Virus record (IMG/VR): IMGVR_UViG_3300042731_008396
Coordinates: 1 to 23,602 of that record
Origin: a virus
Length of the DNA: 23,602 nucleotides
Reading direction: 5' to 3' (one strand)
Of the stretch, positions 5 to 20,255 are shown in pieces (the stretch's first letter is position 1; each line of letters begins with the position of its first letter). Under the pieces are notes generated by a model. It saw only the letters and a program-made list of their open reading frames with translations, searched no databases and was not told the origin of the DNA. A program made the position numbers and the translations under genes.

Positions 5-1666
5 TTACCTTACTTTTGTCCGTCCCTTGAATCTTGTCCGTCCTTTTACCCCAATGGCATCATGTTCACTGCTATCTGTGTATTCATGTGCTCCAATATC
101 CCAGGTTCCATCTGACCCCCTTGTGTTGCCCCACAAATCAGTGTCCAAACCTGGAAGGTTTCTTGAGGACAGGTCCGTTCCCGCATTAAGTGCGGCGGTA
201 TCTGATGAATCCAGTCGAAAATCTCTCCCATTTAAATCCACAAACACGGGTTCATTTGTTTTGTTATTGCTGTAACTGTCCACGGCATCATTAAAATCAA
301 GGACATCGGCATGATTTGTCATCCAATACCGAACATTTCTCCCAGCCGCGTTTGTGGACCAAACAATGTTGTAATCAAACGCCATGTTCGCCTCGGTGTA
401 AGCATAGCCCGCTCCACCGGAATTGCCGTTGGTTCCCTTCAGATCAGCGCCGGTTTGAAATCCACCGATTACAATATTGTTTTTAATTACCCAATTCGTG
501 CAAGTGAAAGTGTTTGTGTTTGAAGCTGCATAACGATTGAACAGTCTAATGCCCCCATCCGGACTGTTGTTTCCATTCAGCCCGGACCCATCCAGCCAAA
601 GTGTGTTGTTTGCGAACGTCATGTAAGTCCAACTGCTGTTTGTGTCTGGAGGACCAAGCCCGCCTATATCCTCCCAGGCTGGCGTGAACAGACCTTCTGC
701 ATCCGAATCAAAATCATCAAAATCATCCCAGTAAATCAGGTTGCCATAAAAATGGGTATTGGTGGCGTGTTCCGTCCACGTGGCCGGGTAGGTATATCTT
801 CCGTAAATGTCATAAACAATATTGTTATAATAAATGATGTGGCTGCCTGAACCACTTATGCCGTCAGGATGGCCATTCCGCTTGTTGCTTTCACGGATGA
901 TGTTATGATGAATAGTGATGCCCTGTTTGATTTCAAAGTGATCATCCCCTATATCATCCAGGAAGCAGTAGCGGACAGTCCAATCTGTGGGGTCTGGATC
1001 CGCGTTGCTCGTCTTCCAACCTACAGCATCCTGCCCTGTAGTATGGATGTAACAATACTCGATCACATTCGATACGTAATTGTAAGGTGAGGTGTGCTTA
1101 ATCAGCACCCCATATTGCTCGCTGCTCGCTCCATCAAGGTGATTGGTCAATTCCACCCATTTTACAAGAACATTGCTACACCCAACCCCTTTAGTAAAAC
1201 CTAACGCCCCAGTTCCATCACCAGAAACACTCCCAACGATACGGATGCCAATATTGTTGGTGATATTATAAACATCTGGGGTTCCAGTTATGTTGCTGTC
1301 CGCCCAATCATCGTCCTTTGCCCCGTCCAGAGTTACCGCCCCAGGAAGCGTTACCCCGAAATCATCTGTTACATAGATTATAACCAAATCATTATGCCCA
1401 ACTTCCTGTGAAGCTTTAATAACGATGGGGTTTTCGACCGTCCCGGAATAGTTCATGGTCAGCCTGAAGTCGTAGGTGCCGCCAGAAATGTAACAGGTAT
1501 CACCCGCACTCCACACATTGCTGCTGGAGAACGCACCGAAGTTTGTCCATGCGTTGGCCCAAGATGTGCCATTGTTGTTGCCAGACCCAGTGTTGTCTAT
1601 GTCACAATACCAGGTTGCGGCAAGACAGGGCAGCGCGAGCAATAAAATAGCCAATCGTTTTACCAT
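5..1666 (-). CDS. Secreted right-handed beta-helix protein (possible polysaccharide-active appendage)
   Basis: 553 residues, ATG start overlapping the end of the upstream gene. Residues 1-17 form a Sec signal peptide: MVKR, a hydrophobic LAILLLALPCLA core, then ATWYCD. The mature part opens with a Gly/Asn-rich GNNNGTSWANAW segment, seen at the start of many extracellular parallel beta-helix proteins. It continues with short Asn-rich turns (for example IHHNIIRESN, IIYYNNIVYD, MTFANNTLW) that look like beta-helix coils. The end (LNAGTDLSS, LPGLDTDLWGN, DIGAHEY) resembles the choice-of-anchor region of such proteins. Parallel beta-helices in phages are often receptor-binding or depolymerase spikes; in PVC-type bacteria they are often secreted polysaccharide lyases. 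No catalytic residues can be assigned, so the enzymatic role is a guess. The last 20 residues are basic with a repeated KGRT motif. It is the last gene of the leftward block in the window. Confidence 0.8.
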   Translation of the reverse strand: MVKRLAILLLALPCLAATWYCDIDNTGSGNNNGTSWANAWTNFGAFSSSNVWSAGDTCYISGGTYDFRLTMNYSGTVENPIVIKASQEVGHNDLVIIYVTDDFGVTLPGAVTLDGAKDDDWADSNITGTPDVYNITNNIGIRIVGSVSGDGTGALGFTKGVGCSNVLVKWVELTNHLDGASSEQYGVLIKHTSPYNYVSNVIEYCYIHTTGQDAVGWKTSNADPDPTDWTVRYCFLDDIGDDHFEIKQGITIHHNIIRESNKRNGHPDGISGSGSHIIYYNNIVYDIYGRYTYPATWTEHATNTHFYGNLIYWDDFDDFDSDAEGLFTPAWEDIGGLGPPDTNSSWTYMTFANNTLWLDGSGLNGNNSPDGGIRLFNRYAASNTNTFTCTNWVIKNNIVIGGFQTGADLKGTNGNSGGAGYAYTEANMAFDYNIVWSTNAAGRNVRYWMTNHADVLDFNDAVDSYSNNKTNEPVFVDLNGRDFRLDSSDTAALNAGTDLSSRNLPGLDTDLWGNTRGSDGTWDIGAHEYTDSSEHDAIGVKGRTRFKGRTKVR

Positions 1667-2481
1667 GTAAAAAACTGATAGATGTTGCTTAAGTAGTTCT
1701 CCGTGTTCACAATATCAGTGAGTGATGTATCGGCGTCGTCTATCACAACGGAAGCAATCTCACCATTTAAGAACCAAGAGTTTTCATTTCCACCCACACC
1801 AATACCATCCATGTTATCGCTTCCCACGGTCCCAGAGGCAGCCTGAACCCCATTGGTGCGTATGAAGCTGTCTGCCCCATCGAAGTGGGCGGTTATTAGC
1901 CGCCACGTGTTCGCGGGTGTGCCTGTGGTATCAGTGATCTGAGTAGGCACAGAATCTCCACGGGCAATCAACTGACCGGAGCTGTTAATCCTCAAAACGG
2001 TGTCGTAGCCACTAGTGAGGTTGGTGCTGCCAATAAGAGCATCGGTCCCAAGGGTGAAAAAGCGAGCCACGACAAATACTGTATAGGGCGGGGTAATACT
2101 GGCCCCCACCGCATACAACGCATCCACTTCCCGAAATGACACGGCGGAATGATTATTGATCGACGCTATGGTGTTGGTGAACCCGGGAACGCGACCATTA
2201 TCATCCTCTAGGTCATTCCCGGCGGAGCTTTTATCAGCCCAGTCTGTTACCTTATTGTCGCCGTCTGAGTAAGCTAGATCATCCCCATAAACCCAGAGAA
2301 TTGGGTTGCTTAAATCGTTCGGATCTTCATATCCGCCACCCGCCTCCTGCTCCGCAGACGCTTGCTGCGCGACATCGAAGAAGCTGAACGCTTGCCCCTT
2401 GCATGCCTTGGTCCCGGCCACAAGCAACACCACGATTACGCAGACACAGAACAGCCAAGTGGATGGATGAAACCGTTTCAT
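1660..2481 (-). CDS. Secreted LamG/concanavalin-like jelly-roll protein
   Basis: 273 residues, with its ATG overlapping the upstream stop (ATGA). The N-terminus is a signal peptide: MKRFHPSTW, a long hydrophobic run LFCVCVIVVLLVAG, then TKACKGQAFS. No canonical lipobox is visible. The mature protein has features of LamG-like jelly-roll domains: WADKSSAGNDLEDDNGRVPGF, then SAVSFREVDALY, then YTVFVVARFF, and later WRLITAHFDGADSFIRTNG and WFLNGEIASVVI. This pattern fits carbohydrate-binding domains found in secreted bacterial proteins and phage appendages. It sits between two other signal-peptide proteins in an overlapping gene string, so it is probably co-expressed with them. The binding target is unknown. 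Confidence 0.72.
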   Translation of the reverse strand: MKRFHPSTWLFCVCVIVVLLVAGTKACKGQAFSFFDVAQQASAEQEAGGGYEDPNDLSNPILWVYGDDLAYSDGDNKVTDWADKSSAGNDLEDDNGRVPGFTNTIASINNHSAVSFREVDALYAVGASITPPYTVFVVARFFTLGTDALIGSTNLTSGYDTVLRINSSGQLIARGDSVPTQITDTTGTPANTWRLITAHFDGADSFIRTNGVQAASGTVGSDNMDGIGVGGNENSWFLNGEIASVVIDDADTSLTDIVNTENYLSNIYQFFTW

Positions 2482-3140
2482 TGGTAATAAGTGATTTCCA
2501 GGTCAATATTGTCGAAGTCGGTTCTCACGTCCAGTCCTCCAGATGGGCCGGTTGTGGTAACATCATACCGCATTTGAAACCGTATTCCAGTGGATGCAGC
2601 CTGATAAGATCCATCCACGTCACGCATTGGAGCGGCCCCACGTGAAACAAACGATCCATCTGTGGAGGTTGGAAGTGTAAAGTTCGTTAAACTGCCAGCG
2701 GAATGCACTACGGTGTTATCATTCGCAATCACATCAAACTGGCAGGAATGGCTTCCAAGATTAGCCACTGCCAACACCTTAGTTTCCCAGTCAGTCAACC
2801 GCACAGAAAGAACCGTGGCCCCGGAAGGCACACCAAGCGTAATCCACGTTGATCCTGTTCCATTTGTCTTGGCCCAATTGCTGCCAGTGTGGTTTTTTGA
2901 AATACACTCCCACTGTAAAGCGCCGCTTGGATTGCCATCCCCGGAATCATGCTGGCAGACCACGTTGGCATTTGTTCCAGCATCCCCTAATTCTTCAAGG
3001 CTGCTGGCAAAAGTCCAGGTATAGGTGGTGGTGTTAGTTGTCGGTTCACCGCCAGCGGCTTCAACTAAGTATGGGTTGATAATGAACCCTTGACCGCAAA
3101 CCAAAAACGGCGCAAGAAGTAACAATAAAAACAGTTTCAT
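2478..3140 (-). CDS. Secreted beta-rich protein, unknown function
   Basis: 220 residues from the ATG at 3140. A longer reading from a GTG at 3167 is possible, but the ATG overlaps the upstream stop (ATGA) and has a strong ribosome-binding site, CAGGAG about 7 nt upstream. Starting there puts a signal peptide right at the N-terminus: MKLFLLLLLAPFLVCGQG. The rest is Thr/Ser/Asn/Gly-rich with alternating beta-strand patterns (TYTWTFASS, VLSVRLTDWETKVLAV, IRFQMRYDV) and ends in DLEITYYQ. It looks like a single all-beta domain of the kind used in phage appendages or carbohydrate binding. I do not recognise the family. Confidence 0.75.
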   Translation of the reverse strand: MKLFLLLLLAPFLVCGQGFIINPYLVEAAGGEPTTNTTTYTWTFASSLEELGDAGTNANVVCQHDSGDGNPSGALQWECISKNHTGSNWAKTNGTGSTWITLGVPSGATVLSVRLTDWETKVLAVANLGSHSCQFDVIANDNTVVHSAGSLTNFTLPTSTDGSFVSRGAAPMRDVDGSYQAASTGIRFQMRYDVTTTGPSGGLDVRTDFDNIDLEITYYQ

Positions 3141-6100
3141 CACAAACTCCTGTATCCGATCAACCACACCTTCAACCCGGTTGCTGTGCCATCCCCGATC
3201 TGGTCAACGTCCACAGTGATCTCTGACCAGTCGGCTATGGAGGGCGCGTTAATAACGGCTGGGGTCACCGGGTTTTGGTTGCTAGTCTCCGTGTTGTCTA
3301 TGGTTACTTTCGTTGAAAAAACAGTGGTCCCGTCATCATGCACATCCACCGTAAAGATATTGCCCGAAGTCTGGGCTGTGGTAAGGCTGCACCGAACGGA
3401 TGTAAGCGTGAAGGCGAAAGGCGCAACGATGGTTACCTTGTCTGTGCCTGCTGTGATCGCTGTTGTTTCATCACTGGCAGCCATCCCGATTGAAACCGGG
3501 AAGTTTGTCCAAGTCACGGTGCCTTGGAATGTGGGGCCGTAAAGTGTTGGTGCGTTTGTTTCCGCCTTGGTGTCAATTTGCGGTTGAAGCACACCGGAAA
3601 GGGCATTGGTTGCTGCATCGGTATAGTTCGTTGCGGATTGCAGCACCGCTTCATCTGCCGTTTCTAAAACTCCAGACAAATCATTGGTTGCTGTATCAGT
3701 ATAATTCGTGGAGGATTGCAAAACATCTTCATCCCAACTTTGAGCAGACCCGGCAAGTGCGTTAGTCGCGGAATCGGTATAGTTGGTAGCTGACTCAAGA
3801 ACGGCTTCATCATAAGGAACAACATAAGTAGTCAAGAAACTGTTGGTTCCAAGATCATCCCATTCGCTAAGGTTGGCGGCATACCCCTGCACATTCGTCA
3901 CAACCAGATCCCAATAATTTGTCCCGCCAGAAGTGGTGACATTGACCTGAAGATTTTCCTGGTGGGTGATCATGACGTTGGTGTTCGCCACACCAACAGC
4001 CGTCCCGTTGGTTCCAATGGTGGTTAACAACCCATCTCCTCCAGCGGTAGCCTGTGCTCCATTGTTGTATTGCGCCCACACGGATGCTTCCGTTGTTCCC
4101 CAACAAAACAAACTCACCACAGCATAACGCTGGGATGGAATGTCGAAGGTCCAGCTATTAGTGGGAAACGGCTTCCAAGCACTATCAAGCGTAACGGTGA
4201 TGGGGTTTGCGGCGTGTTTATTCGTCAGGAAAAGTGTTGCCTGTCTTCCTGATGCACGCTCGGATGAATCCAATGTGACATCTTGATCAATGGCAACGAA
4301 ATGCGCGTTATTTGTCCGAAGATCAATCGTTATTGTTGCGGCTGTGTTGTAAAGATTAGTCTGATGTGCCAACCCCCAGGCAGTCAGGTTGGTGGCAGCT
4401 CCATCCCGCCCAGCAATCTCACCGCCACCACCGCCAGTTGGAGCATTCGTCCAGCGCACTTCCCCGTTGGTATAAGCAAGAAATTGACCGGCGGCGGCTT
4501 CCCCAAAGGAAGCAAAGTCAAAGTTCATATTCGTGCCATCTGAAACAGTGAAGAAGGGCACTCCGTTTGTTGGCCCGGTTGGCCCAACAAAAACCGTGTT
4601 GAAAGTCATAGTGGCGGCTGACTGCAATACCCAATCACTGCTCCCGTCAGCATCACCCATAACCACAGCCCCTTCAGCGTTATTGGACACATAAAGACTG
4701 TCATGGATCACAGTTTCACCAACGAACACAGCTTCATTCATTGTGGGTTGATTGCTCCGCACAAGCCCATCTGTGCCAGTGGTGTTGGTGATGGCTATTG
4801 TATTACTTACCCCAGCCACCATGAAATCAGCCGTATCCACCTTCATTTCGCCCGCAATCCGGTTGCCGCCGTCCAGAATCCAATCAATTCCAATCGCGTC
4901 AGCCGAAAGAATATCAACTGCATTAGTGAAGTCTGGATCCGTTGCCGCGCCTCCGTTCACCGTTATGGCATCTCCCCCACCAGCCCCGGTATCATCCGGC
5001 GCCATCAGCACCGCACCCCAGCCGGTATTCCCTGTGCCATTAGTCTTCACGTAAGCGGAGGAATCCGCAGCCCCATCCGTGCGCATGTAATAACTGCCAA
5101 CTGGGGCAGTCACCGCACCTTCGGGGGTTCCTGTTCCGGAAAAAGCCCTAAATGTATTTGACGGCACGTAAGCATTCGTTATTGCCATTGCCGTTCTCAG
5201 AACGCCATCCAAATCATTGGTCGCTGTGTCGGTATAGTTGGTTGAGGATTCCAAAACGGCTTCATCTGCGGCAATCAACACCCCGGCAAGATCACTGGTG
5301 GCTTGAATCGTGTAATTAGTGGCGCTCTGAAGCACCGCTTCATCCCTGGTTCTAAGCACCCCATCAAGATCATTCGTGGCGGTGTCGGTGTAGTTGGTTG
5401 CACTCTCTAAAACTGCCTCATCTGCTGCAACTAACACCCCTGACAAATCGTTGGTAGCGGTGTCTGTGTAATTAGTGGCACTCTCCAGAACGGCTTCATC
5501 TGCTGAAACTAATACCCCAGACAAGTCATTAGTCGCGGTGTCGGTGTAATTGGTGGAAGATTCCAAGATGGCTTCCCCCCCATCCACAGTAACAAATTCA
5601 TTTGTTCCAACATCATTCCAGTTTGTCAGGTTCCCGCTTAAATGAACTGTAGGTGGAGCATCTTGAGCATACAGACCCGCGTTTTTATCGTTAGTGGTAA
5701 TCAGAAAATCAGAACTGTATTCAATAGCCTTCCACTCTGAATCCCCAGCCCAAATGGAATCAATCTCGTTCCATGTTAGGGTGTTGTTCCCGCCGCCAAG
5801 TTGCACATAAAGATATTCTCCCCAAGCTTCATCAATCATGTGCTGATGAACAAGTAGGTTTGTCCCTCTATACCGAATCATGAGCATGTCGTTACCCAGC
5901 CAATCCATGGTCAACTCTGCAAATTCACCATTAGTCATGGCAGCACCGGAAGACACACCTCCATAATTGCCCCACGTGGACCCACCCACCCCATTAGTTG
6001 TCAGAGACAAATTGGCACCCTCTCGATTGGCGTTAAGGTGAACCATACGGGTAGACCAGTTAGCAGAAGAGGAACAGGCAATAGTAACCCCGCCCAAACC

Positions 6101-8005
6101 AGACCCACCGTTATCAATCATTCTAAACCGAACACCAATATGGGTTGGTTTCCTGAAAAGCTTGTATTTCAAGTAAATATTTCGATTGCTGGTTGCTGGT
6201 TGATCGTGGCAGAAAAACCCATTGGTGAGGTATCCCACATCCCCTGGTTGCCGGTCTAAAACATCATGATCAATTGTATATTCTGTTCCATGTGGTGAAG
6301 AATCAACCCCCCCTTTAGTTGTCGCATCCCTGTTAAAATCATCAAAGAAAATGGCTTGGCGACGGTTCATGTCAGCCCTGAGTGAATTCGGGTAGTATTG
6401 CCCGCTTTCATTCGTGAAGCTATACCAAGCCAACTGATTTGTTTTCAGAACTGAACCGTCAAGTTCCAACGTGTTAGACACGCCCCCCACATTAAAATCG
6501 TCAGTGTCGATCTTGAATTCGCCCGCTATTTCAGTTGCCCCGCCGGACAATATCCAGTCAATCCCGATTGAATCAACCGAAAGCAGATTAACAGCATTGG
6601 TAAAGTTCGGATCCGTGGCGGCTGTTCCGTTCACTGAAACAGCATCTCCACCACCGGCCCCAAGATCATCTGGCGCATAAAGGGCGGCACCCCATCCAGT
6701 GTTTCCAGATCCGTTCGTCTTGACATACATCACACTGTCAGCCGCCCCATTTGTTCGGATGAAAATGGCGCCAACATTGGCGGAGACAGATCCCTCTGGG
6801 CTGGCATTGCCTAGTAAAAATGTCGTGCTGGTCACGTTGGAAAGGCTGATATCTGCTGGCTGCCCACCTCCAGATCCCAAATCATCCGGAGCAAACAAAA
6901 CAGCACCCCAACCCGTATTTCCAGTGCCATTTGTCTTCACATAAGCGGAAGTGTCTGCTGCCCCGTCAGTGCGCATGTAATAACTTCCAACCGGAGCAGA
7001 CACAGCCCCCTCTGGAGAACCTGTCCCAGAAAAAGCCCTGAACGTATTCGATGGAACATAAGCATTTGTAATTGCCATTGCTGTTCTTAAAACCCCGTCC
7101 AGGTCATTCGTGGCGGTATCCGTGTAATTGGTGGCGCTTTCGAGCACCGCTTCATCAGCCGCCACCAAAACACCGGACAGATCGTTAGTCGCTGTATCAG
7201 TGTAATTCGTGGCCGATTCCAGAACTGCTTCGTCAGCCGCCACTAACACGCCAGATAAATCATTCGTTGCTGAATCGGTGTAATTGGTGGCGCTTTCCAA
7301 CACAGCTTCGTCTGCTGCAACTAACACCCCTGAAAGTGCATTGGTAGCTGCATCCGTATAGTTGGTTGCGCTCTCTAAAACTGCCTCATCTGCGGTAACT
7401 AAAACTCCAGAAAGATCGTTGGTTGCTGAATCAGTGTAGTTTGTCGCGCTTTCAAGGATAAGTTCACCGCCCGCAAGGCTGGTAATGTTGGTGAGCAAAA
7501 ATTCCACATAATTGGTATTGCCCGCTGTGGTGGTGGAAACTTGCATGTGTTCATTCATCACAAACTGCAAGTTGGTGTTCCCTGCCCCAATGTAAGTGCC
7601 GTTGGTGTCCACCAGCCGGTAAAGCCCGTCTGCTGAACCGCTCCCTCCCCCAGCCGCATGAACAGCAATATCAATCTCCGTGGTGTTCGTTACCCTGATA
7701 ATGGTGTTTGTTCCGGTGATGAAGTTGATTATGGAATTAGTGTGTGCGGGAACCCCGTTAGTCCACACAATCACATCAGCCGCACCCGCCACCGGGTTGT
7801 GGTTGGAAATCAACAGCGCATGATAACCATTGGTGGGGATCATAAACAGCGTGATGCCCGCACTGGCAAAGATGTTCGATGCCAGAAAATTGGTTGGAGC
7901 TGAAACCAAGTGGTTTGTCCGATTAACCATCAAGGTAACCGGCGGGTAACCGGCGCCCAAGACGGTCATGGCGCTTAAGAGAAATGCAAGAATGGTGCGT
8001 TTCAT
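3140..8005 (-). CDS. Large repeat-rich fibre-like protein with signal peptide
   Basis: 1621 residues; the start overlaps the previous stop (TAATG), with GAGGA about 9 nt upstream. Residues 1-18 are a signal peptide (MKRTILAFLLSAMTVLGAG). Three blocks of a 26-residue unit of the form ESATNYTDTATNDL then SGVLVAADEAVL follow: five copies at 185-306, five at 815-936, three at 1404-1473. Such YTD-rich units resemble coiled shafts of phage tail fibres. Each of the first two blocks is followed by a duplicated beta region (AITNAYVPSNTFRAF, SYYMRTDGAAD, NTGWGAVL). Residues about 545-765 look like an inserted lectin-type jelly-roll (IFFDDFNRD, VRFRMIDNGGSG, ELTMDWLGNDML). The C-terminus from 1490 (ASDETTAITAGTDKVTIVAPF through LKVWLIGYRSL) matches a beta domain common at the ends of phage tail and fibre proteins. 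Most likely a long trimeric fibre; the signal peptide is unexpected. Confidence 0.85.
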   Translation of the reverse strand: MKRTILAFLLSAMTVLGAGYPPVTLMVNRTNHLVSAPTNFLASNIFASAGITLFMIPTNGYHALLISNHNPVAGAADVIVWTNGVPAHTNSIINFITGTNTIIRVTNTTEIDIAVHAAGGGSGSADGLYRLVDTNGTYIGAGNTNLQFVMNEHMQVSTTTAGNTNYVEFLLTNITSLAGGELILESATNYTDSATNDLSGVLVTADEAVLESATNYTDAATNALSGVLVAADEAVLESATNYTDSATNDLSGVLVAADEAVLESATNYTDTATNDLSGVLVAADEAVLESATNYTDTATNDLDGVLRTAMAITNAYVPSNTFRAFSGTGSPEGAVSAPVGSYYMRTDGAADTSAYVKTNGTGNTGWGAVLFAPDDLGSGGGQPADISLSNVTSTTFLLGNASPEGSVSANVGAIFIRTNGAADSVMYVKTNGSGNTGWGAALYAPDDLGAGGGDAVSVNGTAATDPNFTNAVNLLSVDSIGIDWILSGGATEIAGEFKIDTDDFNVGGVSNTLELDGSVLKTNQLAWYSFTNESGQYYPNSLRADMNRRQAIFFDDFNRDATTKGGVDSSPHGTEYTIDHDVLDRQPGDVGYLTNGFFCHDQPATSNRNIYLKYKLFRKPTHIGVRFRMIDNGGSGLGGVTIACSSSANWSTRMVHLNANREGANLSLTTNGVGGSTWGNYGGVSSGAAMTNGEFAELTMDWLGNDMLMIRYRGTNLLVHQHMIDEAWGEYLYVQLGGGNNTLTWNEIDSIWAGDSEWKAIEYSSDFLITTNDKNAGLYAQDAPPTVHLSGNLTNWNDVGTNEFVTVDGGEAILESSTNYTDTATNDLSGVLVSADEAVLESATNYTDTATNDLSGVLVAADEAVLESATNYTDTATNDLDGVLRTRDEAVLQSATNYTIQATSDLAGVLIAADEAVLESSTNYTDTATNDLDGVLRTAMAITNAYVPSNTFRAFSGTGTPEGAVTAPVGSYYMRTDGAADSSAYVKTNGTGNTGWGAVLMAPDDTGAGGGDAITVNGGAATDPDFTNAVDILSADAIGIDWILDGGNRIAGEMKVDTADFMVAGVSNTIAITNTTGTDGLVRSNQPTMNEAVFVGETVIHDSLYVSNNAEGAVVMGDADGSSDWVLQSAATMTFNTVFVGPTGPTNGVPFFTVSDGTNMNFDFASFGEAAAGQFLAYTNGEVRWTNAPTGGGGGEIAGRDGAATNLTAWGLAHQTNLYNTAATITIDLRTNNAHFVAIDQDVTLDSSERASGRQATLFLTNKHAANPITVTLDSAWKPFPTNSWTFDIPSQRYAVVSLFCWGTTEASVWAQYNNGAQATAGGDGLLTTIGTNGTAVGVANTNVMITHQENLQVNVTTSGGTNYWDLVVTNVQGYAANLSEWDDLGTNSFLTTYVVPYDEAVLESATNYTDSATNALAGSAQSWDEDVLQSSTNYTDTATNDLSGVLETADEAVLQSATNYTDAATNALSGVLQPQIDTKAETNAPTLYGPTFQGTVTWTNFPVSIGMAASDETTAITAGTDKVTIVAPFAFTLTSVRCSLTTAQTSGNIFTVDVHDDGTTVFSTKVTIDNTETSNQNPVTPAVINAPSIADWSEITVDVDQIGDGTATGLKVWLIGYRSL
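3587..3796 (-). repeat. Repeat block 3: three 78-bp units in the fibre gene
   Basis: Three units encode residues 1404-1473 (ESATNYTDSATNALAG, QSSTNYTDTATNDLSG, QSATNYTDAATNALSG). They precede the conserved-looking C-terminal beta domain. Confidence 0.93.
4973..5197 (-). repeat. Second copy of a 75-residue internal duplication
   Basis: Encodes residues 937-1011 of the fibre protein and is a near-identical protein copy of residues 307-381 (6863-7087). Both read RTAMAITNAYVPSNTFRAF, then PEGAV, APVGSYYMRTDGAAD, KTNGTGNTGWGAVL, APDD and GGG. A further related pair follows: residues 451-515 and 1009-1072 share VNG, AATDP, FTNAV, IGIDWIL, IAGE and VSNT. A third, diverged partial copy sits at residues 391-453. 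Confidence 0.9.
5198..5563 (-). repeat. Repeat block 2: five 78-bp units in the fibre gene
   Basis: Five units with the same 26-residue period encode residues 815-936. The fourth is the most diverged (QSATNYTIQATSDLAGVL). As with block 1, it leads directly into the duplicated beta region starting RTAMAITNAY. Confidence 0.95.
6863..7087 (-). repeat. First copy of a 75-residue internal duplication
   Basis: Encodes residues 307-381 of the fibre protein, the partner of 4973-5197. It directly follows repeat block 1, as the second copy follows block 2, so the duplicated unit is the 26-residue shaft plus beta module together. Confidence 0.9.
7088..7453 (-). repeat. Repeat block 1: five 78-bp (26-residue) units in the fibre gene
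   Basis: Five tandem units encode residues 185-306 of the 1621-residue protein, each reading E-S-A-T-N-Y-T-D followed by A-T-N-x-L-x-G-V-L and A-D-E-A-V-L. The protein units are nearly identical, but their codons differ widely (see findings). Confidence 0.95.
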
Positions 8006-8286
8006 TATGGATAATCCTCAAGGTAAAGGACATGCTCGCCATTGATGGTGGTGGATCGAACTTTGCGATAAAGCCCGTCTACGTCATCCTGAACAATGGC
8101 TTCACGGCCGGGAGTGGTATCAGCGGATTGGGATAAATAGAGAGTTGGGACACCGTTAATGGTTGTGCTTCTTAACCAGCGCCAAAGGTTATCCGTGTCA
8201 TCCTGAACCTTGGGCGCCCCTTCAAAAAGAAACTGCCCAATATTCGTGGCAACCTTCAGTTCACCTTTTCTGTTGAAACATTTCAT
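8005..8286 (-). CDS. Small protein with an internal sequence repeat
   Basis: 93 residues, ATG overlapping the upstream stop (ATGA). It carries two copies of a roughly 25-residue unit, at about 27-51 and 65-89. Both contain VQDD, x-D-x-L, an aromatic residue and Arg, then RSTTING and LYL; I count about 17 of 25 identical positions. The unit has a beta-rich look. It lies between a small beta protein and the giant fibre, so it is probably a minor virion or fibre-associated protein. No enzyme motif or signal peptide is visible, in contrast to the four genes downstream. Confidence 0.72.
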   Translation of the reverse strand: MKCFNRKGELKVATNIGQFLFEGAPKVQDDTDNLWRWLRSTTINGVPTLYLSQSADTTPGREAIVQDDVDGLYRKVRSTTINGEHVLYLEDYP

Positions 8287-8627
8287 GGTTTCTTGGTGAT
8301 TCCAAAGACAATGAAATGAACTTGATCAGCAACATCACAGATACCATTAAAGGAATCATTGCCGCCAAGCTGAATAGGATTATCCAAAATATCGTGCCGG
8401 TCGCCTTCATCTATAAGCAGCCCCTTTGGTGAAAAGAGAATATTTTCACTGAAGGAACCATCTGGAAGTCGTTTTTGAATGTAGACAGAAACCTGCCTTT
8501 GTCCGGAATCATCCGATACCAACGTGATTTGGTATATCGTCGCGCTTTCCTTTGGGTCAACGGCAAAGAGCGGCTTGATGGCGGATTGCAATTTACCCGC
8601 CGCAATGATTTCCCATTTCTCAGACAT
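8283..8627 (-). CDS. Small beta-rich phage structural protein
   Basis: 114 residues, ATG start 3 nt after the upstream stop. The predicted strands (ATIYQITLVSDDSGQRQVSVYIQ, QVHFIVFGITKKP) suggest one small beta-sandwich. Small proteins of this kind often follow fibre genes in phages as head or tail decoration or adaptor proteins. I do not recognise a specific family. It overlaps the next gene by ATGA, pointing to coupled translation. Confidence 0.65.
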   Translation of the reverse strand: MSEKWEIIAAGKLQSAIKPLFAVDPKESATIYQITLVSDDSGQRQVSVYIQKRLPDGSFSENILFSPKGLLIDEGDRHDILDNPIQLGGNDSFNGICDVADQVHFIVFGITKKP

Positions 8628-8630
8628 GCT

Positions 8631-10031
8631 TTAAGATTTTGCTATCTTCTCGATTCGGATGATCAAAAACACTTCACTGACACTGGGGATGGATGCAGCC
8701 TTGCCGTATCCAGCCACCACACTGGCCAATTCCGCGTAATGTTCGATGCAAAATTCTTCGCTGGCGGCTTGGACTTCAAAACGTCCCTCCAACACGCTGC
8801 GGGTTGGGATGTCTGATGCCGCCGGGCTTTTCTCGGTGGTGCCGTAAATCAAATTGGCGGATCCAACATGCGGTTGGACAACACCCAGGGTAACATTCCA
8901 AAACCGGATTTGATGATAGCCAATCTGATACCCAACTGCTTCTGCCCGAATTCGATAGAAACCTTGGGTTAAAGTAAATTTGTTTCCAGCTACACCACCA
9001 GCGGTATGGGCGGCAATGGATGCACCCACCGCGCCGGTTGTGTCAGAGGAAGCTTCGGTAATGTTGCGAGCGCCCCAAGATCCCGGGGTGGCACTGGAAT
9101 TGTCCCCGTCTGTGCCAGAGGTTTGCAGCTCGCGCAGAATGATGGTTTCAACTGTGACTTCTTCCGCTGTGTCCCCAAAATTGTCTGGCCCCAGTTTAGA
9201 GTATTTAACCCCAGCCGCTTCGGCCGCATCAACCATCAGCAACATGCCATCAGTTACCCCCACCGCTACCCTTACGTTATCGCTGCCGTTATGAACGATA
9301 ATGTCCCCTTTAGTGGTGCAGGGGGATAGGTTATCGAAAGCGGTAGTCTTAGTGATGCCGCCCGTTCCACCCAAAGTGACAGGCAAAGCTAATGTAGCGG
9401 TGAAGTTTGCCGCATTGGAAAGATCAATGGTGGCCCACTCCATTTTAACTCCAGCCACACCAGAGTTGGCGCGGAGGAATGCGCCAGTTGCGCCTACGCC
9501 CAGCCGGGTGTTCTTGGCGGCGGTGGCGCTATTGCAAACAATCAGATCCCCTTCGGTGGTGGTGATGCCTAAGCGGGGCAAAGAACTCCCGTCCAATTCG
9601 ATATCACCACTGGCGGCATAAGTAACTTCCCCAGACAACCCCTGTAATCCTCCACAGCTTACCGTGCTGCCGCTGGGCACGGTTGTGGTGGGTGCCACAT
9701 TCTCACCATAAGCACCCCCGGCGGTTTCCAAATTCTCCAAATTAACTGTGCTGGAATCGGTTATGGCATCCACCCGCATCCAGCCAGCATTTTCAACGTA
9801 AAGGATTTGCCCCACGCTCATCCAAGCTGACTGAACCACTTTAACCCCAGACACCACCGCACCCAAAGCAGGCATGGTGAAATCGGCGGTAAGGGTGGTG
9901 TGGGCGTTTACTCCAGCGGTCCCGTCTGCCCCATCCTGGCCGGGATCACCCTTGGCACCGGGGATGTTTTGCACGTTGGGGTCATCGCAAGGATCACAGC
10001 AATCGGACTGGAAAGGCAGAGCGGAAGGCAT
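8631..10031 (-). CDS. Collagen-like head or tail fibre protein
   Basis: 466 residues. The N-terminus has a Cys cluster (DCCDPCDDP, 10-18) and a short collagen-like Gly-X-Y run (GAKGDPGQDGADGTAG, 25-40), then a beta module (41-104: TTLTADFTMPALGAVV, VGQILYVENAGWMRVDAI) typical of phage fibre N-terminal parts. Two related shaft units follow at about 158-202 and 238-281 (TTEGDLIV, RLGVGATGAFLRA; TTKGDIIV, RVAVGVTDGMLL), linked by the common fibre motif LPVTLGGTGG. The C-terminus (350-466: NKFTLTQGFYRIRAEAVGYQ through VFLIIRIEKI) resembles a C1q/TNF-like jelly-roll, a trimerisation and binding head. It is the first gene after the major capsid gene, so a head fibre or an adsorption fibre are both possible. 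No signal peptide. Confidence 0.78.
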   Translation of the reverse strand: MPSALPFQSDCCDPCDDPNVQNIPGAKGDPGQDGADGTAGVNAHTTLTADFTMPALGAVVSGVKVVQSAWMSVGQILYVENAGWMRVDAITDSSTVNLENLETAGGAYGENVAPTTTVPSGSTVSCGGLQGLSGEVTYAASGDIELDGSSLPRLGITTTEGDLIVCNSATAAKNTRLGVGATGAFLRANSGVAGVKMEWATIDLSNAANFTATLALPVTLGGTGGITKTTAFDNLSPCTTKGDIIVHNGSDNVRVAVGVTDGMLLMVDAAEAAGVKYSKLGPDNFGDTAEEVTVETIILRELQTSGTDGDNSSATPGSWGARNITEASSDTTGAVGASIAAHTAGGVAGNKFTLTQGFYRIRAEAVGYQIGYHQIRFWNVTLGVVQPHVGSANLIYGTTEKSPAASDIPTRSVLEGRFEVQAASEEFCIEHYAELASVVAGYGKAASIPSVSEVFLIIRIEKIAKS

Positions 10032-10119: not shown

Positions 10120-11349
10120 TTAGCTGGTGCAGGTAACCTCAGTGTAGGTTCGCGGTCGGCATCGCTTGAAGAAGATGCTGCGCCCGAACTCAGGGAAGAT
10201 CGGTCGCGGAGCATGCTTGTATTCAGCAAAATGCCGCCCACGTTTCTTCAGCGGATCATAGCAATCGCCGTTGGTGTCAATGTCCGGCCCGGTCACAAAC
10301 TGCCACTCGCCAGTGTAAGTTGTTGGGTTCCAGGACAACCCGGCGGCCGCATTGACCGGCCGAATGATTTCACTGTGGAACACCCACGGAGTGAGCACGT
10401 CAGCCCGCTCGAAATCAGCAACTTGCCATTGCGGGTTGATTCGCGCCACGTAACCCTTTGTCCCGGCAACCATCACCCAAGTGGGGATTCTGGTAAGGCC
10501 AACCCCGCCAACATAATGATATCGCGGAGGGAACAAGTTGATCACGTGCCGGAAGTTGCCAATCACCTTAGACGCACCAACACGCTTGAGAAGCATGGCA
10601 CCCATGCCAGCCCCGGTGTCTGCATCCCGGTAATCCTGCCGCCTGTCGGCGTTATTGAACAGGATTTGATGGGACATTTCCTGACCGATATACAGCGGGT
10701 AAATCGGGCCATCCTCGCCCAAATTGATCCAGCCATCGGTGTTGATGTCGCTTGACCCCGCCTCATTCAATTCAGCGGCAGTTTGTTCCAACATCTCCTG
10801 GGTCAACTCACTGGTGGGTTCCGAAACGCCGGACAAGTCTGGCACTTGCGGAGGATCGCCAGTGGATCCATCAATCGTGGTGTAAGAGGAGGTTGCGGGA
10901 ACTTTCGGTGAGAAGTGGCAAAAGATATTGGAAAGTCGGTTTTCCAAACTGCGCATGGAACGTTTCGTCAACGCTCGCAGATACCCCTCAAGGAACCGTT
11001 CCGCCCGGTGGTGGAAGATCAAATCATCTTTACAGATGATCGGACCACGCAAGCCCAGTTGTTCTGGGTGGTATTGGCTTTCCTCAAAGCCATAATTCAC
11101 GTCATTCCAGGTAACAGCGCAAGCCTGTTGCCCAGAACCAAGTGAAATCAACGGCCATGCTTCCTCATCACTGGTGGGTTCGGATCGGCCAAGAGTGAAC
11201 GTGGTTTGCTCTAACCCCGTTCCTTTCTTGTATTCTCCGCGCTGGATCAGGTTGATCCAGATACCACGATAGGAAGCCCGCAAGTAAATCTCTTCATCCA
11301 GAGATTCGGTTGCCAATTTAAAGGCATCAAACACATCTTGACAGGTCAT
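10120..11349 (-). CDS. Putative major capsid protein
   Basis: 409 residues, ATG start. It is called as the major capsid protein mainly from position (directly after the scaffold-like gene, before fibre genes) and from its length. It is a mixed alpha/beta protein with no enzyme motif: an N-terminal helix region (FDAFKLATESLDEEIYL), a central Ser/Thr/Pro-rich stretch (about 150-200), and a C-terminal half that looks like a capsid core (IPTWVMVAGTKGYVARINPQW, DVLTPWVFHSEIIRPVN, CYDPLKKRGRHFAEYKHAPR). I cannot assign it to a named capsid family. No Shine-Dalgarno site precedes the start (ACCACCTTTTTGTT then ATG), which is surprising for a very highly expressed gene. Both flanks are unusually rich in hairpins, suggesting dedicated mRNA control. 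Confidence 0.68.
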   Translation of the reverse strand: MTCQDVFDAFKLATESLDEEIYLRASYRGIWINLIQRGEYKKGTGLEQTTFTLGRSEPTSDEEAWPLISLGSGQQACAVTWNDVNYGFEESQYHPEQLGLRGPIICKDDLIFHHRAERFLEGYLRALTKRSMRSLENRLSNIFCHFSPKVPATSSYTTIDGSTGDPPQVPDLSGVSEPTSELTQEMLEQTAAELNEAGSSDINTDGWINLGEDGPIYPLYIGQEMSHQILFNNADRRQDYRDADTGAGMGAMLLKRVGASKVIGNFRHVINLFPPRYHYVGGVGLTRIPTWVMVAGTKGYVARINPQWQVADFERADVLTPWVFHSEIIRPVNAAAGLSWNPTTYTGEWQFVTGPDIDTNGDCYDPLKKRGRHFAEYKHAPRPIFPEFGRSIFFKRCRPRTYTEVTCTS

Positions 11350-13807: not shown

Positions 13808-14482
13808 TTAGGCATATCCAAATTTTTTCATTATTTCACCATTTGCCTTTACCACAATATCTTGAATTTTTTTTGGCATCTCCTGCTTATAATACCCACT
13901 CCGTCCGCGTTTGTAATACCAATCCGATTTTGCCTCAAACCACTTGAAGGGGGGCATCTCTCTCGCTTTTTTTGTCAGCCATCCAGCTTGCATTAAAGCT
14001 CGTTGGGCCTTTTCGACGGGATCAACAATCATTTCCTCATATAAAACGGTTCCCATTCTCATTTGATTTGATTCGGCATATTCAATATAATCCCCCCAGC
14101 TTTTTGGCAATGTATTAACACCCTTAAAAGAAGCCGCCTTCCCTTTGGCGAAAATCTCCAATGCTTGCGCATAGGAATATTTCTTGTTTACCTTGCATAC
14201 ATATCTCGCGTAACTGCAAAACACATCTCGCGGATCTCTCACCACGTGAATAAACGGGTCTGAGCACATCGGCACATGCCCACGATAAAAAACGACCTTC
14301 TCCAAGCCTGTTTTTATGTCTGGCGCGAAGCGTTCTTTATTAACAAAAAGATCATTCCCCAGTATGCATTGAAAGGGTTTTTTTGTTTCTGCCTGTGTCC
14401 AAACATGGTCAAGACATTGAACAGCGTGAATAAACAAGCTCTGCCCGGATCTAGGATAAGAAATGACAAACAGCTTTTTCAT
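13808..14482 (-). CDS. Sulfotransferase (second copy)
   Basis: 224 residues, ATG overlapping the upstream methyltransferase stop (ATGA). The 5'-phosphosulfate-binding loop for PAPS is YPRSGQS (9-15). A His in YRGHVP (69) is the likely catalytic base. VVRDPRDVFCSYARY (80-94) is the 3'-phosphate-binding segment, and KRGRSGYYKQE (191-201) matches the C-terminal basic PAPS-contact region. These are hallmarks of the sulfotransferase 1/3 fold, which moves sulfate from PAPS to a hydroxyl or amine. It shares its C-terminal pattern (MPPF, then FGYA at the end) with the sulfotransferase at 15159-15863, so the two are paralogues. Sample lines of the gene are near 32-43% GC by hand count, against about 58% in a portal line, suggesting recent acquisition. 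The acceptor is unknown. Confidence 0.88.
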   Translation of the reverse strand: MKKLFVISYPRSGQSLFIHAVQCLDHVWTQAETKKPFQCILGNDLFVNKERFAPDIKTGLEKVVFYRGHVPMCSDPFIHVVRDPRDVFCSYARYVCKVNKKYSYAQALEIFAKGKAASFKGVNTLPKSWGDYIEYAESNQMRMGTVLYEEMIVDPVEKAQRALMQAGWLTKKAREMPPFKWFEAKSDWYYKRGRSGYYKQEMPKKIQDIVVKANGEIMKKFGYA

Positions 14483-15156
14483 TTTTGTATTCTAACAAAA
14501 ACGGGATCAACCCCATGCTTTTTCCCGGTTCCAGGCATAAGTGTGTATCCGGCGGCTGAAAGCAATGCAACAGATTCGGCCCCATTTTTTCCGATTACAT
14601 CCAGCTCGCAAACGATGTGGTGGGGTTTGCACAGCGTTATCGTTTCATATGCCCCCGTTAAAACGGAGAACTCATGCCCCTCGACATCAAGATGAATGAA
14701 ATCAAGCTTCGTTATTCTCAGTCGATCTATGGGAACAATCATGCACTGACCATCCCCAAGTTCAGATATTTTCGTCATGCCCACATTATTGAATGTTTTC
14801 AACGGGGCAACCCCATCAGCGGCTCCAACAGCGAGATTTATTGAAACAATCGGAGCAACCAGCCCGTTTTTGTTTGCGTTGATAATATTGTGGGCTAAAC
14901 AGTTAAACGCATCCAAGTTTGGTTCAAACGCATAAACCAACCCATTAGGGCCGCATTTCCTGGCATACGGAATAGCGTGGTCCCCGTAAAGGGCACCAGC
15001 GTCCAACACGTGATCTCCCGGTTTTATTAACGGCAATAACGTTTCTCTAAGAAAACCTTCAACCATAATATCCTTATGTGATGCAATCCACTTTGTCATG
15101 TGTGTGTCATGTTTCAACCCCGCCCAACCTTCTTTTGTAATGACAAATGGTTGCAT
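14479..15156 (-). CDS. FkbM-family SAM-dependent methyltransferase
   Basis: 225 residues, ATG start 2 nt after the upstream sulfotransferase stop. The Rossmann glycine motif is VLDAGALYGDHAIPYARKC (50-68), followed by VYAFEPN (74-80) with the acidic residue that binds the SAM ribose. LDFIHLDVEGHEFSVLTGA (151-169) is the FkbM hallmark segment. FkbM-type enzymes O-methylate sugars and related small molecules and are common in polysaccharide gene clusters. Placed between two sulfotransferases and near two glycosyltransferases, it most likely methylates a sugar on the same glycan. Length is normal for the family. Confidence 0.88.
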   Translation of the reverse strand: MQPFVITKEGWAGLKHDTHMTKWIASHKDIMVEGFLRETLLPLIKPGDHVLDAGALYGDHAIPYARKCGPNGLVYAFEPNLDAFNCLAHNIINANKNGLVAPIVSINLAVGAADGVAPLKTFNNVGMTKISELGDGQCMIVPIDRLRITKLDFIHLDVEGHEFSVLTGAYETITLCKPHHIVCELDVIGKNGAESVALLSAAGYTLMPGTGKKHGVDPVFVRIQK

Positions 15157-15158
15157 TT

Positions 15159-15863
15159 TTAGGTCGAATCGGCGGCATATCCAAATTTCCTCAACACTTC
15201 ACCGAATCTTAAATTAAACCCCGCCAACAGTTTCTCGGGAAACTCCTCCTTGTGAGAGCCAGCCCTTCCTTTCCGGAAAAAGTTGGGATCCTTGGCATGC
15301 AACTCAGTGAATGGTGGCATGGCTTTTTTGGGTTTAAGAACATACCCAAGACTTGAGAGAGCATCTCTTAATTCCGTGGTGAACGGATCATTGCAAAGGT
15401 TTTCGTAGCGAACTGTCGCGCCTATCTTGCCGCTTTGTTTCCACCTTGTGACATGATTAGCCCAATTGGCATCCACATCCATGTGATATCTAACCCGCTC
15501 CTCATAGGTCCAGGGCTGCCCGTCACGTTGAGCGTTGTGGACATCAAATCTCGCATAACTAAGAGTGGCATCCCTTCCATCACGCAAGATATACAGCACA
15601 TCCCCAACGGCATGATCATGAGGCATGTAATGTTGCTTAAGAACATACACGGTTGAATCATCGCTGTGGAATTCATTTAACCTTTGAGGATCTTTTCCAG
15701 CGGCCCCAAACTCTTCCAGCATGGGCAATGGATTAAGCTTCCCCATCGGGCAAAACTTAACCTTCTTTTTATCCCGCACCCAAACCGGCTCATAACAAAG
15801 GAGCAACGCTGTGGTAACAAGACTGTTTCCACTTCTAGGATACGATACCAAATTCAGGATCAC
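15159..15863 (-). CDS. Sulfotransferase (first copy)
   Basis: 234 residues starting at a GTG that overlaps the glycosyltransferase stop (GTGA). Motifs are textbook: YPRSGNS (8-14) binds the 5'-phosphosulfate of PAPS; His78 in KQHYMPHD is the likely base; YILRDGRDATLSYARF (91-106) binds the 3'-phosphate; RKGRAGSHKEEF (197-208) is the basic C-terminal loop. Residues GKIGATVRYENLCNDP (145-160) match the usual R-Y-E-x-L-x-x-D-P element. The enzyme would be cytoplasmic (no signal peptide) and acts on an unknown acceptor, presumably the product of the neighbouring glycosyltransferases. PAPS would have to come from the host, as no PAPS synthesis gene is in the window. Confidence 0.9.
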   Translation of the reverse strand: MILNLVSYPRSGNSLVTTALLLCYEPVWVRDKKKVKFCPMGKLNPLPMLEEFGAAGKDPQRLNEFHSDDSTVYVLKQHYMPHDHAVGDVLYILRDGRDATLSYARFDVHNAQRDGQPWTYEERVRYHMDVDANWANHVTRWKQSGKIGATVRYENLCNDPFTTELRDALSSLGYVLKPKKAMPPFTELHAKDPNFFRKGRAGSHKEEFPEKLLAGFNLRFGEVLRKFGYAADST

Positions 15864-17533
15864 TTTTTCTTTCTTGGCCTGCCGCGTTTCGGCTTGTCTT
15901 TCTGGGCTTGGGCGAAGGCTTCCTTGATTTGTTCTCTCGCCGTGCGCCCGTCCTCCATCCTCTGGTCCAGCCCGGCGTGGGACCAGTAAACCTTAAGGCG
16001 GTCTTTGGGCGCCAAGCCCTGAGATACGTCGATCCAAAACCACCGATCCGGATGGGCTTTGATGGCCCAAGCGCCCATGGTTGGGAATTCTGCGAAGGTT
16101 TGCGGAAACTCATTCTTGCATGATAAAACATAATCCTCAAATGGCTTGCCTTGAATGTCGGTAATGTGATTGCGCAGCCCGGCATACAGATCCACACAAA
16201 AAATTGAGGGATGTCGGCACATGGTATACCAAACCGGCGGGTAACCTAACGCCTTCTCTGTGACTTTCTCCCACTGAGCACAATCACTTGTCAACCCGTT
16301 GGCGCCGGTCAGGCTGGCGTAAGTGCGCACCACCCAGTGCGGTTTGCCGTCTGTGAAATAATCTGACACGTGCGTTGGCTTAAAGAAAATGCAGTCTGGA
16401 TCCAAGTGCAACACGTGCGTTGTTCCACGTGGAACAAATTTATCCGCGCTCATGAGCATGACCATATGATGCACCATACCTTTGCCGGGCATCTCATCAA
16501 ACCCGATAAGCTTGGCGCTGTGCTTTTTACAGATTGGTTCAAACACTTTTAATTGCGTGTTTGGAACCAGCATGGTCACCCCGGCGAAACCCTTGGCAAA
16601 CAGATCAATGGATTCCAGGCTTGGGGCAACCCAAGACAAATCCCGTTGATACGTCACATAGAAAATCTCCACCTTGGGCAGCACGGCCCGTTGATTGCGG
16701 GGTTGAAGGATGGGCTTGGAAGGTTCATCCAGCGTGGGGGGTGGGGTATGCTGCGGGACGTTTATTGTGGATTCGCTTTCCCCTCCCCAATTATGCTCGA
16801 TAATCCGGTCAATGAGGGTTCCATCCTTGCAACGATGATGGAACGCACATCGGAAATCCACCCTTTCATCGACACTTTCCCAGGTTGGGAACGTTACCAG
16901 CCCGGCCTTGCTCCAATTCGCCATGGTGCTATTTGGATCAGCTTCCCAATGGTGTTGAATAATGTGGTTGGCTTTATGGACTTTGCCCTGCATTTCCTTT
17001 TTCATGGCCACATCAAATGCCACATCCGTGCAACGCAGCCCGGCTTGAGCATGCCATTCGATCTTGGGCGGATAAACCGCGCACCCGTTCACATGCCCCA
17101 TTCCCTCCACAATATGACCCATGAATGGCTGGCCTCCCTTCTTATATTCATCCATGATCATATCCAGCCAGTCAGGCCGGAGTGGGGTGGCATCCGGTTC
17201 CAGCCATAACCATGGACAATTAAAGCACAGACTTAGATAAACACAGGTTCGTTGAAAGGCTGCGTTCTGCGGCCGGGGCCAAGGTTCTTGTGGTGGGGCC
17301 GGATAAACGTAGGTGAACACCCGGCGGAAATACCGTTCAGCTTGGGCTTTTACCCTGGCTGCCTTATCCTTTGGGGTTTGATTATCCCACGTCAGAAGAC
17401 AATCCGCCTCAGTTTTCTTTCCGGAATTGAGACGGGCAATGAGTTCGGTTTGTTTCCAGGCTAGATCGACATCTTTAGCGCAAAACGGAATAACAACAAG
17501 AAATTGCGCATCGTCAACTCTGATCAGGGGCAT
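15860..17533 (-). CDS. Two-domain glycosyltransferase with AT-hook-like C-terminus
   Basis: 557 residues, ATG start 12 nt after the portal stop. Two GT-A-like halves are visible. In the first (about 1-250), FLVVIPFCAKD opens a Rossmann strand and WLWLEPDATPLRPDWL (108-123) carries an acidic EPD where a DxD motif is expected. In the second (about 287-520), VEIFYVTYQRDLSWV starts the fold and HVLHLDPDCIFFKP (373-386) is a clear DxD motif (DPD, 378-380) for metal and nucleotide-sugar binding. The Pro-rich segment 255-285 is a linker. The C-terminus KPKRGRPRKKK (547-557) is a canonical AT-hook core (RGRP flanked by Lys/Pro), which would bind the DNA minor groove; it might instead be a simple basic tail. 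It heads the sugar-modification island. Sugar donor and acceptor are unknown. Confidence 0.8.
   Translation of the reverse strand: MPLIRVDDAQFLVVIPFCAKDVDLAWKQTELIARLNSGKKTEADCLLTWDNQTPKDKAARVKAQAERYFRRVFTYVYPAPPQEPWPRPQNAAFQRTCVYLSLCFNCPWLWLEPDATPLRPDWLDMIMDEYKKGGQPFMGHIVEGMGHVNGCAVYPPKIEWHAQAGLRCTDVAFDVAMKKEMQGKVHKANHIIQHHWEADPNSTMANWSKAGLVTFPTWESVDERVDFRCAFHHRCKDGTLIDRIIEHNWGGESESTINVPQHTPPPTLDEPSKPILQPRNQRAVLPKVEIFYVTYQRDLSWVAPSLESIDLFAKGFAGVTMLVPNTQLKVFEPICKKHSAKLIGFDEMPGKGMVHHMVMLMSADKFVPRGTTHVLHLDPDCIFFKPTHVSDYFTDGKPHWVVRTYASLTGANGLTSDCAQWEKVTEKALGYPPVWYTMCRHPSIFCVDLYAGLRNHITDIQGKPFEDYVLSCKNEFPQTFAEFPTMGAWAIKAHPDRWFWIDVSQGLAPKDRLKVYWSHAGLDQRMEDGRTAREQIKEAFAQAQKDKPKRGRPRKKK
16420..16437. 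promoter_or_regulatory. Perfect 18-bp palindrome matching the parS consensus
   Basis: TTGTTCCACGTGGAACAA is a perfect inverted repeat. Its central 16 bp (16421-16436) fit TGTTYCACGTGRAACA, the widely conserved chromosomal parS site bound by ParB; the CC/GG variant is the type I recall from pseudomonads. It lies within the glycosyltransferase coding sequence, over codons 367-372 (VPRGTT), just before the DPD motif. Two further CACGTG cores lie within 60 bp (16367-16372, 16412-16417). No ParA or ParB gene is in the window. A chance origin cannot be excluded, but a full 16-bp match is very unlikely in a sequence this size. Confidence 0.6.
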
Positions 17534-19799: not shown

Positions 19800-20255
19800 T
19801 CACCATTGACCAATGGGACAGCGGGAAGTTGCCATCCCGAGTTTCACGCCGCTACAGCCGCACTTGCCGCACCGACCCTTGATAAGCGGCCCGCCCTCTA
19901 CACCAGACCAGAAGCGGCATTTACCGCATATGCTTAAACGTTGCTCTAATAGGGGCTTATCCGCAACCTCAAACTTATGCGCAGCCCACTTGCCCAGTTC
20001 CATGGCGGCGTTGTAGGCTTGGCGAGCTAATGGCGGGGCATCGTAATCATAACAAAGGTCCGGCATCTGCTCACACACGTTGGCTTCAATTTCTTCCTTG
20101 GTTAATTGAGGCAGCTTATTTGCCGCACAATAAGGCTTAACAGCCATTTCAATCCGCATCATGCTGGGCCGCTTGATGATCGTGCCATGCTTGGGGCATT
20201 TCCAAGCGAAGTAACCGCCGGGCGGAACCTTGTTCCGATGTTTAAGGCGCATCAT
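19800..20255 (-). CDS. Small Cys-rich zinc-ribbon-like phage protein
   Basis: 151 residues, ATG overlapping the terminase stop (ATGA). The C-terminus carries a typical small phage zinc-binding pattern: C110-x2-C113, C129-x2-C132-x-C134 and C146 before PIGQW. I recognise this CGKC-RCGKCGC-RCPIGQW arrangement from small phage proteins encoded near terminases, but no function is established that I know of. The N-terminal half has its own possible metal site (C20-P-K-H23, C43, C61, C68) and a helix (LTKEEIEANVCEQMP). A DNA-packaging accessory role is inferred from position between TerL and portal. Confidence 0.72.
   Translation of the reverse strand: MMRLKHRNKVPPGGYFAWKCPKHGTIIKRPSMMRIEMAVKPYCAANKLPQLTKEEIEANVCEQMPDLCYDYDAPPLARQAYNAAMELGKWAAHKFEVADKPLLEQRLSICGKCRFWSGVEGGPLIKGRCGKCGCSGVKLGMATSRCPIGQW

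Follow-up and report, generated by a model that had tools for sequence, protein, structure and literature searches.

The window, by which is meant the whole 23.6-kb stretch of DNA analysed here, is a linear contig that constitutes its own virus record. Its genes lie mostly on the minus strand, and the last of them, reaching the contig end, are four genes whose products carry predicted N-terminal signal peptides. The region upstream of the four comprises a terminase gene, a portal-sized gene, a glycan-modifying block, scaffold-like and capsid-like genes, a gene for a collagen-like 466-aa fibre protein and two small genes. The large subunit of the terminase (20252-22021) matches phrog_2 (E 1e-10). 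Coordinates of the four genes and of their upstream neighbours are listed below.

10120..11349, minus strand: 409-aa capsid-like protein without signal, used as query for relatives
8631..10031, minus strand: 466-aa collagen-like fibre-type protein without signal (phrog_24210 tail fiber, E 4e-8)
8283..8627, minus strand: 114-aa upstream gene without signal
8005..8286, minus strand: 93-aa gene without signal, its stop overlapping the start of the 1621-aa gene
3140..8005, minus strand: 1621-aa fibre-type protein with N-terminal signal peptide
7955..8005, minus strand: predicted signal peptide of the 1621-aa protein, residues 1-17
6692..7105, minus strand: residues 301-438 of the 1621-aa protein, two module copies (Loki ORF21, KOX1 tail fiber protein)
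5018..5215, minus strand: residues 931-996 of the 1621-aa protein, third copy of the Loki/KOX1 module
3146..3634, minus strand: residues 1458-1620 of the 1621-aa protein, G010-like C-terminal domain
2478..3140, minus strand: 220-aa protein with signal peptide
3093..3140, minus strand: predicted signal peptide of the 220-aa protein, residues 1-16, cut VCG/QG
1660..2481, minus strand: 273-aa protein with signal peptide; residues 147-247 weakly laminin-G/concanavalin-like
2410..2481, minus strand: predicted signal peptide of the 273-aa protein, residues 1-24, weak cleavage site
5..1666, minus strand: 553-aa protein with signal peptide, the gene end being the contig end
1616..1666, minus strand: predicted signal peptide of the 553-aa protein, residues 1-17

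Between the portal-sized and scaffold-like genes, positions 13808-15863 hold two sulfotransferase-like genes (PF00685) and a FkbM methyltransferase gene (PF05050), whose products may modify host or virion glycans. The same block includes a 557-aa gene (15860-17533) that is glycosyltransferase-like by eye and has no match in Pfam or PHROG.

Start codons and signal anatomy

An earlier note on this DNA had claimed that four consecutive fibre-region proteins carry signal peptides; this was confirmed, and all four open reading frames were found in place on the minus strand. The ATG of the 1621-aa gene at 8005 coincides with the last base of the 93-aa gene, that of the 220-aa gene at 3140 sits on the stop of the 1621-aa gene, that of the 273-aa gene at 2481 forms an ATGA overlap with the stop of the 220-aa gene at 2478, and that of the 553-aa gene at 1666 overlaps the end of the 273-aa gene at 1660. 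Because the starts overlap or abut the preceding stops, the N-termini of all four proteins are fixed. The RNA fold around the start of the 1621-aa gene is unremarkable (z -1.4).

The basic n-region and hydrophobic core described in the note are present in all four proteins, with a good cut site in the 1621-, 220- and 553-aa proteins and a weak one in the 273-aa protein. The predicted signals, with the residues after the cut, are MKRTILAFLLSAMTVLG/AG in the 1621-aa protein (core 2.6, cut score 8.1), MKLFLLLLLAPFLVCG/QG in the 220-aa protein (core 2.9, cut score 7.3), MKRFHPSTWLFCVCVIVVLLVAGT/KA in the 273-aa protein (core 4.0, cut score 4.3, with a weak c-region) and MVKRLAILLLALPCLAA/TW in the 553-aa protein (core 2.9, cut score 8.4). 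All four hydrophobic cores are uncharged and located at the true N-terminus, and the rest of each chain contains no stretch of comparable hydrophobicity.

Signals were predicted with a home-made tool combining a home-written von Heijne weight matrix with rules for the hydrophobic core and charge. In a control on 49 kb of Escherichia coli DNA, where exported genes were counted mostly from product names, it recovered all exported genes (9/9), and four others (malF, pdeC, plsB and yjcB) also passed. According to this predictor the 93-, 114- and 466-aa proteins and the capsid-like protein all lack a signal, so that the sharp change reported upstream of the four genes was reproduced. Among the 17 other window genes tested, the sole pass at the loose cut-off was a sulfotransferase (core 1.86), which fails the stricter cut-off used later. 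The chance rate, estimated with internal segments of the four proteins preceded by an artificial MKR start, was 9/2267 (0.4%), and 26 of the 1793 ORFs of at least 120 aa in related loci passed.

Domain content of the four proteins

By its domain content the 1621-aa protein is of fibre type. It contains three copies of a fibre/spike module that are 54-58% identical to proteins of Acinetobacter phage Loki and Klebsiella phage KOX1, whose own genes, unlike the window gene, encode no signal. Its C-terminal domain is 42% identical to a protein of the related phage G010 that matches tail-fibre PHROGs and lacks a signal.

The 220-aa protein has no family match and no fibre or spike domain. The 273- and 553-aa proteins look, from their sequences, more like exported lectin and beta-helix proteins. 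The former scores 18.9 bits against Laminin_G_3 (PF13385), below the cut-off of 27.6 bits. The latter resembles secreted Verrucomicrobiota proteins, several of the matches beginning within its signal, and scores 17.8 bits against the choice-of-anchor Q family (NF041518), under the NCBIfam cut-off of 25 bits. Its likeness to choice-of-anchor Q and secreted Verrucomicrobiota beta-helix proteins is thus weak and consists of a C-terminal motif and a signal-bearing N-terminus; it differs from the choice-of-anchor Q proteins in being phage-borne, besides scoring under that cut-off. An AlphaFold2 model of the 553-aa protein, built with no alignment, was unusable (pLDDT 31).

Tail fibres and spikes are regarded as cytoplasmic proteins that join the particle before the cell lyses. 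The expectation that fibres have no Sec signals as a rule was borne out in isolated phages used as matched controls: none of the eight fibres and spikes tested that share these modules carries one (0/8), and the Cellulophaga phage phi38:1 tail genes have none either.

Signal-bearing spikes in related phages

Relatives were collected with a terminase alignment, which yielded 80 loci, and capsid matches were present in 38 of 39 records. The window terminase and capsid have no match among isolated phages, and viral-contig scans that took either the 1621-aa protein or just the window capsid as query gave no matches. By capsid identity the nearest relatives are G007 (47%), G010 (47-48%) and G023-G025 (42-43%).

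G007 shows no similarity to the four window proteins detectable by BLAST; downstream of its capsid gene, proteins of 440, 670 and 100 aa are encoded, each with a signal. Its large fibre has a signal-like hydrophobic stretch about 90 residues in rather than at the N-terminus, and its 388-aa beta-helix protein has a hydrophobic start with no basic residue ahead of the core. At L086:18150-18620, in G007, the large fibre ORF consists of a small capsid-proximal domain running directly into the signal-like stretch. This domain and the fibre form one ORF in G007, which may be a fusion or an assembly error; the window has a counterpart small gene and, separately, a fibre gene.

In G023 a 631-aa signal-bearing protein is a tailspike by its domains, Pect-lyase_RHGA and K1-lyase_C (E 2.4e-28), and no recognised virion-binding domain was found between its signal and its enzyme. 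Directly downstream of this gene lies a holin gene (Phage_holin_10, E 2e-11), followed, after two small genes, by a gene for a 474-aa tail-spike-like protein with a signal. The L219 version of the 631-aa gene has 27 of its first 28 residues identical and keeps the C-terminal domain, while its centre is GDSL-lipase-like. Between L091:11506-13401 and L219:1826-4099 the N-terminus and the C-terminal K1-lyase_C are the same and the centre changes from pectate-lyase-like to GDSL-like. The 474-aa spike and a 267-aa spike likewise have the signal and about 95 further residues in common and diverge beyond. The 267-aa protein, encoded by G024/G025, is fibre-like with K1-lyase_C; no enzyme domain was recognised in it, and it looks structural. 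Comparison of three signal regions gave about nine synonymous steps and, by inference, at most one non-synonymous step, while their amino acids did not differ; these counts are small.

Known tailspikes with a pectate-lyase-like or GDSL centre and a K1-lyase_C end (PF12708, PF13472, PF24146) match the 631- and 741-aa relatives in domains. However, the isolated-phage tailspikes tested lack a signal, whereas in these relatives a signal is present and no virion-binding domain was recognised. K1-lyase_C also ends Streptomyces phage tailspikes; the K1-lyase_C end at L091:11506-11790 is 58-72% identical over its length to these spikes from phages of a very distant host.

Signals were also predicted on fibre-like genes of G030/G031, G022 and L197. 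The last of these phages, reached solely via a short fibre module that it shares, is one that we take to lie outside this clade. At L197:4332-7854, signal-bearing genes of 166 and 135 aa stand on either side of a fibre-like gene of 866 aa that also encodes a signal. An APTNF motif following the signals of the 1621-aa protein and of a 469-aa G030 protein was not significant.

Two scans with capsid alignments both gave one dominant freshwater group. The signal trait is patchy, since the fibres of G010 lack a signal and none was found on the main fibres of the freshwater group in 38 loci inspected, and it looks exchangeable.

Glutamine directly follows the predicted cut in most relatives outside G007, and glutamine at this position is a signature of Bacteroidetes signal peptidase I substrates (PMC5837995). 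In the window it is present in one of the four proteins (the 220-aa protein), and in G007 it follows the best cut in none of the N-terminal signals, so that the phages probably have differing hosts. As a host marker the Q-rule fails for the window itself (1/4). The sole genome-contig match to the capsid alignment was L187, which is 4.5 kb long and belongs to an Akkermansiaceae MAG; its gene order agrees with that of the freshwater group, and it may be mis-binned.

Proposed export, possible role of the proteins and alternatives

The Sec routing of the four proteins proposed in the earlier note has support, as a prediction, from the coupled start codons, from the recurrence of signals in related phages and from the near lack of amino-acid changes in them. 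The note had offered exported effectors and virion appendages routed through the envelope as its two options, and either may be true. Export is the simplest reading because of the coupled starts, the signal anatomy, the recurrence on non-homologous genes and the constraint. We give about even chances to the reading that the four genes encode Sec-exported precursors of fibre/spike and lectin/beta-helix type, acting as free envelope-glycan proteins around lysis. Free spikes around lysis fit best because no virion-binding domain was recognised, the centres of the relatives are glycan-active and a holin gene is the neighbour in G023. For these proteins export, cleavage, oligomeric state and a role in egress are what we infer.

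The four genes would thus end a late run whose products, of fibre/spike and lectin/beta-helix type, engage glycans of the envelope or break them down. Their precursors probably cross via Sec and are then cut by signal peptidase I; the mature proteins would fold in the periplasm and reach the cell surface or the surroundings at lysis. Free spikes or lectins could there act on host polysaccharide, which would aid the release and spread of progeny, or mask receptors.

The best placed of the alternatives, though itself unlikely, is that the proteins are true virion appendages that leave through Sec, fold in the periplasm and attach to particles while the cell lyses or afterwards, with assembly split across the inner membrane. 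It would account for the fibre/spike domains in the 1621-aa protein and in the relatives, and receptor-binding proteins are usually built from a constant N-terminal domain and a variable C-terminus. The fibre-like 267-aa protein with K1-lyase_C, structural in appearance and with no enzyme domain recognised, is more easily seen as an appendage than as a free enzyme. Against docking stand the lack of a precedent in the literature searched and of a recognised virion-binding domain.

In branched receptor-binding systems, secondary spikes are anchored by short kept N-terminal peptides. By analogy, the hydrophobic N-terminus could be an uncleaved docking or membrane-binding peptide of a virion protein assembled in the cytoplasm rather than a Sec signal, and the internal position of the stretch in the large fibre of G007 and the weak cut of the 273-aa protein are in line with this. 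We consider it improbable, however, as four differing stretches share a basic start, a core and usually a small-residue cut site, and glutamine recurs directly after the predicted cut in relatives.

Somewhat more doubtful still is the capture of exported host proteins, which would make the genes recent moron-like cargo altering the surface of the infected cell, and not fibres. The resemblance of the 553-aa protein to secreted Verrucomicrobiota proteins, its sub-threshold choice-of-anchor Q match and the Sec substrates already known from Porphyromonas gingivalis phages (PMC10367356) all speak for such an origin, but the 1621-aa protein contains phage-fibre modules, and the signal-bearing genes of the relatives are tailspikes by domain. 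That the signals arise by chance or as an artefact is very improbable: the predictor is home-made, and predictions of signal-like N-termini on phage capsid proteins have been read as prohead-protease sites (PMC10367356), but the background is low, the starts are coupled, four signals stand in a row and they recur in non-homologous G007 genes.

Phage genes with signal peptides are likewise found in P. gingivalis phages, which encode Sec substrates of unknown function that obey the host Q-rule (PMC10367356). Those signals are on genes of unknown function, whereas in the window they are on fibre/spike-type genes, four of them consecutive. A literature search covering mainly freely accessible papers turned up no account of tail fibres or spikes with signal peptides, so the precedent appears to be limited to the Sec substrates of P. 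gingivalis phages, and signals on fibres and spikes are apparently unreported. If a group of phages exports its fibres and spikes, annotation from domains only would mislead the prediction of host range. If the favoured reading of secreted, free-acting proteins is true, there exists a class of free phage spikes that act on host glycans and are mis-annotated as tail parts. If instead the docked appendages are real, part of tail assembly would take place outside the cytoplasm.
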